This document shows positions 51,001 through 57,000 of a stretch of 64,000 nucleotides of DNA, piece by piece. Origin of the DNA: Paralichthys olivaceus (Eukaryota > Chordata > Actinopteri > Pleuronectiformes > Paralichthyidae); assembly GCF_024713975.1 (NCBI RefSeq), contig NC_091097.1, positions 6,373,861 to 6,437,860 on the forward strand, read 5' to 3'. The translations under genes and the position numbers were made by a program. The first letter of the stretch is position 1; each line of letters starts with the position of its first letter. The notes under the pieces were generated by a model. The model worked only from the letters and a program-made list of their open reading frames with translations, did not search any database and was not told the DNA's origin.

Positions 51001-54000
51001 TCTACTCTGGGTTTCATTACATTGTTTACAGTGTTTTTACGATTCATTTGAATTAGAGACACATATGTACAGCAATAGACGAGTGAGTATAACAAAGGGA
51101 AACCTGATCAAACATTTGCACCACCACAGGGAACAATTTCTGCATGAGGCCAGGGGGCTCGGAGGCATTACAACAGGTCGTCTGTAAATAAACTGGAACC
51201 AAGACTCATCATTCAAATACTAATGGCAGGAAAAAATTAAAACCTTACAACTTAAGTTCATCCAAATGGTTTTAAATTCTACGTACGTATCCTATGTATC
51301 ATCCTGCAGAGGCTGGTGTCAGTCTTCAGGCTGAAGATGACACATGAATATCAGACAACACCCAAAAATCCAAAAGGAATTTAGCTTAATGGCTTTTTAG
51401 AGTAAAGAGACTTGGAGATATTTATTTATCCACAGAGACAGCAGTGTCGACTGTGCTGTTGCCACTAGCAACAAGTTCCATCTTAACATGGCGACAGGGC
51501 CGAGCCTCTCTGCAGCCGGGGGGGAATTTTTTATGCAGCTAAAGCTGAACTTTGTTTATATCTGAGCTGAATCGAACATGGCGGCGTCGACCGGCGGTCA
51601 CAGGACGGTTTGTGTTACAGGTCTCATGCTGCACTCTGATGTTTGAAATGCACTGGTTTGTTGCTTCAGTCTGGCTAAGAGCTGCCGCGCTGTCATCCAT
51701 GTTGACGTGAACCTAAGAAAACATAGATAAAGATGAGTGAGACTGGACAGGTCTGACGTGAGGTGTGGGTCCTCTGTAAACAAAAGCAACAAGGGAGGGA
51801 GAGGAGAGGAGCTGCGTCCTGAGCTCTTGTGGCGGGTGGGGGAGTGGCTCGAGAGGAGAGAATAAAATGTTCTGTCCTCTAGTAAACACAAATACATATT
51901 CACATCAGCTGGACATGCTTCTGCAAGTGGGTGGCTCTTTGTTTTGTTTTTTTATTCCGAGGAGTAGTAACGGCTGACGGTTGCATCATTGCGTGCCGCT
52001 CTCCACCTCTCTTACTTTTGAAGAAATAATACAAATCTTCATGTCTTGGAATAATTGTGATTTCTGGTTCAATTTCTTTTTTTTTTTGCATTTCCCCTGA
52101 TACACCACCACTGTCAAGTATATGAAGTTACAGCAGAGATTTCTCTAGATTTGACTTAAGGTCTCTCAGAGATCAGCCTGCTCTCTCACCATCAGTAACA
52201 CCCTGGTTTTCCTCACTTTCCCCCCCCCCGTCATGCTCAAACCATCTGATTTACACTCTAGCTGCTTCTTCGCCTCACGCCCTCACTGTCCATCGTTCAC
52301 CCTGATCCCTCTACACCTCCTCTGACCACGAAACACTTTTCCTGGACACTTGTTCACAGAGGGGTTGGGTGAGAGAGTGAGAGGGACACACCCTGCTGTA
52401 GTTTTTAAATGTTTACATCTTTTACTCTATTTGGATTTGGACCCGATTATTATTCTTATTTTAATGTTCATCCGAGAACAAAGCTTTTTTTCTTTCTCAT
52501 GGCTGTTTCGTGACGAATCCAGGACACAGGACTTCTCCCCGCAACCGTCCAGGATGATCAATACAGCATTGGCCGGTGTTACACAATGCTGCAGCCAGTG
52601 AGGAGTCTGTCTGTGTCATCTGATCCTGCTGGTTATGCCAAGACTAAAGAGAGAGACAGAAATAAGAAGAAAAAGAGAAAGGAGTCATGGGAATGTTTAT
52701 GGGGGGGAGTGAGGAAATAAAGAAAAAAGCCAAAGTTGAGAGTTAAAGTGAAGCTGTGTGTTTTAGGTTAAGCCAATAAATGCAGTTTTGGTCGTGTGCA
52801 CATCAAACACTCTTGTGTAAGTACAGTAGAGGAGTGAAAAGGGAGAACAAGAGGGCATTTACAGAGAGTTGAGAGTGGGCCTGGCGCAGATCCAGGCGGA
52901 GTGAGAGGGGGCACAAAAGAAGCTTGTCAGAGGGGCCCGCAGTTGTTTTTCAGTGTCAAATCGTACCAAGAGCATGTTGCTATTCCACTCCAACCATTTA
53001 CATTTAAGCCACGCCAGCGATTCCCCCTTCACATCAAGAGAATTTACAAGCGTCGGCCGTAATGTTCTTTTCGAGATAAAGCTGCCCCTTTATCAGGTCA
53101 GAGAGGCCTTTTGCTACAGCTGACTCCCCTCTGTTATGATTTCAAATGCTTGGCCATTAATCAGGGAGCCCACACTCCCTGGGAACCACTGGGGGCACTT
53201 GTTGGTTTCTCCATAATGAGGAGTTACTTGATTTTGCTGCACAATCAGGGAATTTATGAACAGTTACCGCTCTGCACCGTGAATCTTTAGACAGAATTGT
53301 ACCTTTCTCTACAAGCAAAACTTCTCTCCTGAGCAGGTTCCTGAAGGCAAAGTCACATCACAGCATTTGTGGTGTTAAATATGTGAATCTCTGCTCCAAA
53401 ACACATTATTCTTACTTGCAATTAAACTGGCATCACCTGGCAAATGGATTTAGTTGGGTAATGGAGTCGAGCACATACTTGCAGGAGCCCTGTCTAACCT
53501 AACTCTCATGAGCTCTACTCTACATTTAAACCCTGACTTAGCTACTTTGCAGAAAACATTATCAGACAGCACTGACCTGTGTTCTTGATAAATCCGGCAT
53601 GATCGCAACAAGTCAAAGGCTCCAAAAGTAATTTTAATCCAGTTTTGGCTCTCAGTTGAAATAGACCCTGCCCGGCTGCTTTGGTGGTGTCTGTATGTTC
53701 TCTGTGATGGTACCATTTTCTCGTGACATGTTCTGCCAGTCCCCCCACCCCGCAGTGCGCTCCCCTCTCATCTAGAGCGTCTTGCGCTTGGGGAAGAAGG
53801 CTTTCCGAAACGAGGTGGTGGTGGTGCCTCTGCTGAATGAGGCGCTGCCCAGGGCGATCTTGGTCTTCCCACTGGTGATGGTGGAGGAGCCCAGGGATGT
53901 CGTGCTCCTGCCCCTGGTGATGGAGGAGTTCCCCATGGCGAGCTTGCTCTTCCCCCTCTTTATGGTGGTGCTGCCCAGGGAAAGGGCCGTCTTCCCCTCG

Positions 54001-57000
54001 GTGAAGCTGGTGTTGCCCATTGAGGAGAAGCTTGTCTTCCTGACCCAGATTCGACAACGGGGTTCGGGGCTCACTCGACGCGAAGCATCGCACACTCATG
54101 CAGCACGCCCTGCTCTGCGAGACCTCACGGGTAATAGTAACATCAGCTACAATCCAGAGTGGACCAGAATGCTAAGCGTGGATAGCACGACCCCCGTGTC
54201 GCATAATGCCCTCGTTGAGCTGGTCGACGTGGGCTCTGGAAGGCCACATACCACCCATGTGTCCCTGTGAATGGACAGAGGCAGCCGTAGGTGGCCACAG
54301 CCTATCTGGGGAGTCCGGGACAGTGGTGCGATTGTCCCATCACCACGACGACACCGGACAGTTGAAGGACACATTGTTGCAAAGAGGGCAATCTGCGGTG
54401 ACATCACTTTCTTCTGAGCCATTGTTCCCTATAGCCTCTGATTGAAAGATATTCCCTCTGTGTACGACTGTATGCACCATATGTGAAATGAGTCGCATCT
54501 AGTCGGATTTGATAAGAGAAAGGATGCATGTCTTCCATGTTGTCCACATGAATTTTAGGCTGTGATTGCACCTGCCTTGTGTTTGCCTTGTCCCTCCACT
54601 TGAAATATAGGTGTGGCCCCTCTGTTTGTGTCCTTGTTGACCTGTTCACAACCCATTCCAGCAATTCCCTCATTTCCCTCCATTTTATTTAATTTAGATG
54701 ATTGAATACTTCAATAAAAAGTCAGCTCTACTTACAAAACAACCAAGCCAAGCAGTGTTTAGACATGTTAACTTTTATAAGCACTGTTACATCAGTCAGC
54801 TTCTATGTAACATATGGCAGAATAGTTATGGTGATGCAGACAGACTTCGGAATATCAAGCAATCTCATCAGCTTGCACAAATAAACCTCATTTATACCAG
54901 TGTTGATGACTTTTACATGCACAAAAACACTAGAACAGTGCTGATGAAATGCATTCACACACTCCCTTTTGTGTCTCCACATACATCACACACAGCTGTT
55001 TCACATTTCCCCTCCCTGCCAAGTTGACACGCCATAAACCATCGTCTCACCGCCGTCACATTTGCATAACGCTCTCGATTCTTGATTGCAAACCCCTCAG
55101 ACCCGTGACTCCCTTAGCGTGTTCTCACCTGAGAATCGCCTCTTGTTCTCTGTGCAGGGTCATGTTCTTAATGATCTGTAACTCTTGACACACACTGATC
55201 ACAAACATAGCAGCTCTTTATTCTACTAACCTGCTAAAACTGACCAGACAGACATATCCTTGGGTTTTTAAGTGTGTGCAGGATTCATGTGTGAAAATCC
55301 CAGTAGACGTTGCTGTGCGTTTCTTTGCCCCTGATGAGGGTGGTTTTGACCACAGACACAGACTTGGTCCCATGAGTGAGTGTCAGAGTGGTGAGTGAGC
55401 TCGTGGTCTCCCCTCGTGTGACAGATGTTTTGCCCACTGCTATGCCAGCGTTGCCCAAAGTTACTGTGGTTCTGCTCCAGGAGATCGAGGATTTGCCCCA
55501 GGAGATGTCGTACTTATTCCTCAGGATCGAAACCCTGCCTTTGGTGAAGGAGGTCTTGCTTGATGAGAATGTGGTTTTCCACTCATTGTTAAAGCCTTGT
55601 TTGGACTGCTTGGATGCTTTGGGTGCCTTAGCCCTGGCTTCAGGGGTCCTTTCCATCTAGGTGTTCCTGTGCTTGGACATCAAGGCTTTGCGGAATGAGG
55701 TGGTTGTGGTTCCCCGGCTGAAGCTGGCCCGTCCCAGAGCCACGGTCGTCTTTTGCCTTTGAATGGTAGAGTCTCCCATGGAGGTGGTGGTCACTCCCCT
55801 GAAGATGGAGGAGTTGCCCAAGGAGACGGTTGTTTTTCCCCTGGCTATGGAGGTCTTTCCCACTGCCAGGGCAGTCTTGCCCTCTGTGATGCTAGTGTTT
55901 CCCATCGAAGCTGAGGCAGTCAGCCCGAGCCCGTGCCTGATCACCGGCTCCTAACATGCACGCTGCATAGCCTCTCTCTCGTGGCGCAGCAGGGTGAGCT
56001 TGTGAGGTCAAAAGCCAAACTAAAGCTGCAGCAGCAGCCCTAAATAGATCAGACCACCATGTATAGATGAGGGGGAGGGAATTATTTGATCATTCTTCGA
56101 TGCTAACCAGTGCTCAAAGCGACACGACCCAAAGGGACCTGGAAGCACAGCGTGCACAAAGGCTGGGAAGACAGGGGATTAATTGTATCGTTTTCATAAC
56201 ACTGCCAAAGCACTGAAGGGGTACATTGTACATTGTACACAAAACAATTGGGGTGACCTCAGTATGATAAGATGGCATGGTTCCCAAAAGAAGAAAAAAC
56301 CTCCCTGCTGTTGCTGCAGGGTTCAAATACAGTCGTACATTTGTCAGCTTGGATACAGTACAAGGCTGCATTCCAGAGGCTCGTGCAGCAGGCAACTGAC
56401 TCAAAGTTCAAACCCTTTTCTTTTGTGAAGTAGATTTTTATTTCCTATTGTACTTTTCTAATTCAAATGTCTGCGTGTCTGCTTCTATTTCAGATTCTCT
56501 GTAAAGACTCTCCTAGAAAAGTACACAGCAGAGCCCATAGATGACTCATCCGAGGAGTTTATTAACTTTGCCGCCATTTTAGAGCACATCCTCAGCCACC
56601 GCTTCAAAGGTAACACTGCAGGTAACATATAGCACAGGAATGAGATGGACAAATCAGTTTAAATGAATCAGTGTGACTGTAAAAAGTTATTTAACATAAA
56701 AGTGGAATATCGATCTCATTCATATAGTGTACTGTAGACATACTGTTCTGGCTGTACTGGTGCCGTGGCTGCATTATTATAGTGTGATATAATTCACGGC
56801 TGCGTTTAAATCTTGGACCAGGTTCTGGAAGCTGGTTCAGCTCAGATGGACAACGCAGTTTTTGGGAGTATATCCGAGTGGCGTGCAACAAAGTGCAGAA
56901 CAACTGCATTGCCAGCATCGAAAACATAGAGAACATCAGCACATCACGAGCCAAGGTAAGAATGTTTCGATGCACAAATGGGTGTATGACTTAGTGGTGG

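Follow-up and report, generated by a model that had tools for sequence, protein, structure and literature searches.

Zwilling-A and Zwilling-B are teleost myelin proteins produced from one bicistronic transcript, according to the title of Schaefer and Brosamle (2009), cited in PMC8060510. The zebrafish proteins, ZWIa and ZWIb, have the UniProt accessions B9UZF4 and B9UZF5 (PMC8060510). The same paper places both Zwi proteins in the myelin of the zebrafish central nervous system, and reports a difference in zwi mRNA between oligodendrocyte precursors and mature oligodendrocytes (p < 0.0001). Here, we describe three related open reading frames (ORFs), A, B, and C, on the minus strand of a 64,000-nucleotide stretch of the Paralichthys olivaceus genome (contig NC_091097.1, positions 6,373,861 to 6,437,860), which is referred to below as the window. 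We propose, with a probability of about 0.62, that A, B, and C are zwilling-family genes, that B and C likely form one bicistronic message, and that A is a separate third copy, likely expressed in myelin-forming cells. The features of the locus are as follows.

53772-54020 (stop included), minus strand: copy A, 82 amino acids, ends KTL, net charge +14; third zwilling-type ORF, of an unnamed ortholog group
55657-55905, minus strand: copy B, 82 amino acids, ends RNT, net charge +11; first ORF of the likely bicistronic zwilling gene
55285-55656, minus strand: copy C, 123 amino acids, MERTPE...DFHT, net charge +13; second ORF of the likely bicistronic zwilling gene
55654-55659, minus strand: TAG-ATG junction, where the stop of B abuts the start of C in the same frame
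55217-55222, minus strand: candidate polyadenylation signal AATAAA, starting 63 bases past the stop of C, with a GT-rich stretch after it

The reading order on the minus strand is B, C, A, with A 1.3 kb from the B-C pair. B and C have the layout of a zwilling-type bicistron, two related ORFs in tandem, and there is no gap between them. This resembles zebrafish Zwilling-A and Zwilling-B, a pair of small related proteins encoded on a single teleost message; the window differs in having an additional separate copy, A, which belongs to an ortholog group of its own. C is a co-linear but divergent relative that has a distinct basic N-terminus; its identity to B is 26-32%, varying with the alignment. 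When all six frames of the window were scanned with A and with B (stop-free pieces of at least 20 residues), only A, B, and C came up. Further AATAAA words are present on the minus strand at 56563, 56442, and 54689.

Alignment searches found 12 relatives, 10 with the alignment of A, B, and C and 10, two of them new, with a 13-sequence alignment; when B alone was the query, none of the 3 candidates scored as a relative. Seven of the 12 are A-type, four B-type, and one C-type. The six with organism names are all from teleosts (Cirrhinus, Dallia, Electrophorus, Arctogadus, Alosa, and Salminus). The Salminus brasiliensis protein, P0010, is named zwilling and is 80% identical to B over 50 residues, and the Arctogadus protein, P0008, is 83% identical to C over 69 residues. 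No relative was confirmed among 27 pattern matches in viral contigs with B as the query or among 416 in prokaryote contigs with A as the query, and a mobile or microbial origin was set aside on these searches. The original prediction had taken the ORFs for an undescribed gene family. This is incorrect for the family, which matches an annotated one through the Salminus record, though not for copy A as far as its seven relatives go, since none of them carries the zwilling name. The prediction was right that the DNA is from a fish. The prediction had also placed the repeat in no known class, and indeed there is no Pfam match above the curated cut-off, the best E-value among 11 members being 0.012.

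The original prediction, made from the sequence alone, claimed that three minus-strand ORFs share a seven-residue unit. The ORFs are where it placed them, and it saw the repeat pattern correctly. In 5000 shuffles each of A and B, none reached the self-identity of the real protein at lags of 7 or 14; for C, the value at lag 7 was reached in 14 of 5000 shuffles and that at lag 14 in none. The claimed 14-residue alternation was also confirmed, as 39-50% of residues agree between units of like parity and 21-34% between units of unlike parity in nine full-length A/B-type proteins (P0007, P0009, P0010, P0012, C, and P0008 were left out). Odd units are mostly N/S-[TS]-S-[IF]-x-R-G, and even units mostly K-T-x-[LIVT]-S-[LM]-G. 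A and B each consist of nine heptads followed by TTTTSFR and a basic tail. The two agree in the number and order of the repeats and in their ends, as had been claimed, over 82 codons without an indel.

Could such repeats be a decayed 21/42-base minisatellite that has no coding function? Tandem Repeats Finder does report one 42-base array, inside A. However, A and B are homologous from ATG to stop without indels, they differ in excess at third codon positions, and the protein is conserved across teleost orders. These three observations refute the minisatellite for A and B, and for the locus as a whole we regard it as hardly credible. The homology of the A and B DNA extends from just before the ATG to TAGATG; in the flanking DNA, upstream DNA included, there is no homology of note. 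The proteins are 65% identical (53 identical residues), and substitutions at codon positions 1, 2, and 3 number 21, 16, and 40 (chi-square p 0.002). The nonsynonymous and synonymous divergences are dN 0.29 and dS 0.89, and the frame given above has the lowest dN/dS of the six and is the only one without stops. In neutral simulations, 5000 from A and 5000 from B, none retained 53 identical residues (maxima, 48 and 47), and 30% and 19%, respectively, of the simulated sequences were still free of stops. Thus, A and B evolved as protein-coding genes under purifying selection. The earlier view that these are real genes of one family was right. The GC content at third codon positions is 0.90 in A, 0.73 in B, and 0.64 in C, and the overall GC content is 0.42 in a 4.8-kb part of the surrounding intron.

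In a tree of 82 columns, the A-type group is split from all other rows with an ultrafast bootstrap of 98, while C has no firm position (support 60). Four rows are partial, cut at the point where the gene model departs from the repeat (the last residue kept is 58 in P0007 and P0009, 50 in P0010, and 37 in P0012). At 12 columns no residue is shared between the A-type and B-type sets. Those A-type sequences that extend to the end keep MGNTS..TEG and FRKA..KRKTL. The A-type members include Cirrhinus, Electrophorus, and Alosa, of the Otomorpha, and Dallia, of the Euteleosteomorpha; Salminus, also of the Otomorpha, is B-type. If the root lies outside the A-type group, and the tree does not fix it, the duplication predates the split of Otomorpha and Euteleosteomorpha. 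None of the seven A-type relatives is named zwilling; four carry the label hypothetical protein, and the other three are nameless. From these comparisons, copy A looks new, a separate third family member with its own ortholog group. The literature matches listed for zwi and zwilling include nothing on a third copy, which does not establish its absence from print. A search of the fish's own genome (588 Mb) with the B protein at E 1e-3 found only B and A among 30 candidates scored. More distant copies may exist in the genome, because the B query did not find C.

A zwilling-like second ORF behind A was not found in the window, where an ATG past the stop of A opens 39 codons that have no heptads. 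The tail of P0012, if it is read as A-type with a shift, gives MPKRKTL, then TAA or TGA, then CNG. This reading leaves no ATG abutting the stop, so the ATG after the stop of A in the window is likely there by chance. A may be a zwilling copy that left myelin for work elsewhere, or that is hardly expressed, with B-C as the only myelin gene. The lack of a second ORF fits this, as do the unnamed relatives and upstream DNA of A with no notable similarity to that of B, and the zebrafish myelin proteome passages of PMC8060510 name only ZWIa and ZWIb. However, A and B are under the same constraint, and the end-reaching A-type sequences keep their terminal motifs. Furthermore, the proteome search, as described there, was run against the reference proteome, to which ZWIa and ZWIb had been added manually (PMC8060510), so a third protein absent from that set could not have been seen. 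We consider it rather unlikely that A left myelin or is hardly expressed, and prefer A as a third copy likely expressed in myelin-forming cells.

One further feature lies upstream of A.

54199-54429, minus strand: conserved stretch upstream of A, matched by P0002 in one frame and by the Dallia protein, P0006, in another (63% over 78 residues)

A match in two different frames indicates that the DNA rather than the protein is conserved, and this stretch is likely a promoter, an enhancer or other conserved non-coding sequence, or a 5' leader. Nearer to the gene, the codons just before the ATG of A (54021-54044) read V-R-K-T-S-F-S-S, and Dallia P0006 has V-R-K-T-T-V-T there. The Dallia residues with the next Met-Gly make a near-perfect extra heptad, so the start codon of A may have arisen within an older, longer array.

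The zero-gap junction of B and C may not be peculiar to this fish. The gene model of Salminus P0010 departs from the repeat frame after residue 50, and a later part of its tail weakly resembles C when C is read out of frame (35% over 37 residues, E 3e-4). The Salminus residues AANDLDGKE, shifted by one base, permit R-R-T-T-stop-M-E-K/R at all 8 codons, with TAG as the only possible stop; since this stretch was placed by eye, the rough chance figure of 1e-7 is not a fair probability. The B-type relative P0004 ends in RRTT, and the matching shifted frame of the window reads LDGK at the junction spot. Thus, the zero-gap TAG-ATG junction is likely conserved in a characiform. As an observation on the databases, the public gene models of both P0010 and P0012 drift out of the repeat frame; automated annotation may have no way of handling a gene that is bicistronic, or one that is short and lacks introns.

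Only a single stop separates B from C, which share one frame, and readthrough of the UAG would give one fused protein. However, a start codon abuts the stop here and, presumably, in Salminus, and in zebrafish two separate products have been reported (Schaefer and Brosamle, 2009, by its title; PMC8060510), which makes fusion very improbable. On the bicistronic reading that we favor, ribosomes would reach C by leaky scanning past the AUGs of B, or by re-initiation at the AUG that abuts the stop of B. B has three AUGs, all in frame and all with T at -3; it lacks AUGs in other frames, which is compatible with leaky scanning. Such scanning has been argued for bicistrons of green algae in which the context of ORF 1 is weak (PMC11892635). 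The AUG context of B is permissive only; leaky scanning is likely, yet re-initiation is equally open.

What could these proteins do? A, B, and C have 15, 13, and 20 Lys plus Arg and 1, 2, and 7 Asp plus Glu, respectively, with isoelectric points of 10.6-12 and no cysteine. None has a membrane span, as no 19-residue hydropathy window is above 0.6. The zwilling chains, being small, cationic, and rich in Thr, Ser, and Gly, would bind acidic cytoplasmic membrane faces, as MBP does, and the alternating Arg and Leu/Met of successive units would make one basic side and one oily side. Unlike zwilling, MBP is not a Thr/Ser/Gly heptad repeat, and our comparison is one of role, with no sequence relation claimed. 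An MBP-like membrane role seems the likeliest by analogy, given the zebrafish relatives reported in myelin. MBP shares with these proteins a strongly basic character and, with zwilling, a place in myelin; according to PMC10160357, both MBP and the tail of P0 lack order in solution and fold partly on membranes.

Structure prediction gave no usable model, with a mean predicted local distance difference test score (pLDDT) of 38.8 from 2 sequences and, with a predicted template modelling score (pTM) of 0.23, 44.9 from 11. The deeper alignment used 11 of 15 rows, leaving out P0007, P0009, P0010, and P0012. The poor models would be compatible with disorder in solution, without showing it. The stacked beta-strands suggested by the original prediction are unproven, since the short strands on units 2-7 and 9-10 occur in the model of such low scores.

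The proteins might instead fold as a left-handed beta-roll of the kind seen in the heads of bacterial YadA-type adhesins, whether inherited or convergent, and these strands would fit it. Trimeric adhesin heads of this type share the 14-residue repeat with Gly at the turns, and A and B have this period with one Gly per turn. A PDB sequence profile match to such a head has an E-value of 1.4e-5 (2.3e-4 with B alone). However, the reversed sequence of B gives a match to a WD-40 protein at E 3e-17, and E-values of this kind thus carry little weight for this repeat. With A alone, an unrelated enzyme has the top rank, and the sole match of C is an S-layer protein at E 3. The Pfam family YadA_head (PF05658) gave at best 11.5 bits against a cut-off of 25, with 1 of 11 members at E 0.37, and the scores of the structure model are low. 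Homology to YadA was discarded, as the reversed-sequence control scored better than the match, and we consider a beta-roll of either origin improbable.

Several points weigh against our proposal. The zwilling name comes from one Salminus record, with a frame-shifted gene model, and from matching architecture, while zebrafish ZWIa and ZWIb were compared by description; in P. olivaceus, the assignment is a prediction from the genome sequence. The expression of A in glia is only a proposal. Membrane binding is argued from charge alone, and A and B, with Phe or Ile at residue 6, fail a PROSITE-like Gly2 pattern for N-myristoylation, so that no lipid anchor is suggested. The AUG of C also has T at -3, and the lack of out-of-frame AUGs in B is no sign of selection, because synonymous shuffles of B lack them too.

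The three ORFs are antisense within intron 1 (48184-56493) of a host gene.

48077-48183, plus strand: coding part of host gene exon 1, from translation and a GT donor; rundc3a-like
56494-56609, plus strand: host gene exon 2

The joined exons 2-6 match Pfam RUN (E 5.2e-36), and we take the gene to be rundc3a-like from its resemblance to human RUNDC3A. Elsewhere in the window, ORF fragments at 10989-11569 (minus strand) resemble a Ty3/gypsy-type integrase in their motifs. Fragments in 28000-45000 appear to resemble DDX42, STRADA, and RNF113A, and one at 1605-1952 (minus strand) appears MAP3K3-like. Scans of the window for Rfam families and tRNAs gave no hits.

Zwilling was already known as a teleost myelin family; what is apparently new is its third, conserved, unnamed member, A. 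The B-C junction is a clean vertebrate case of two likely proteins per message with no spacer, in which second-ORF translation is easy to test. More tentatively, at slightly worse than even odds, we suggest that teleost myelin contains a third zwilling protein, made from copy A, that predates the split of two teleost cohorts and has been overlooked because it is missing from reference proteomes, and that the three-gene antisense intron cluster is a teleost-specific set of repeat-built membrane glues. The protein make-up of fish myelin differs from that of mouse myelin (PMC8060510), and zebrafish is a main model for fish myelin. Should copy A encode a myelin protein, it could have been missed in the published zebrafish myelin proteome, and it could also mask the effect of removing zwi alone.

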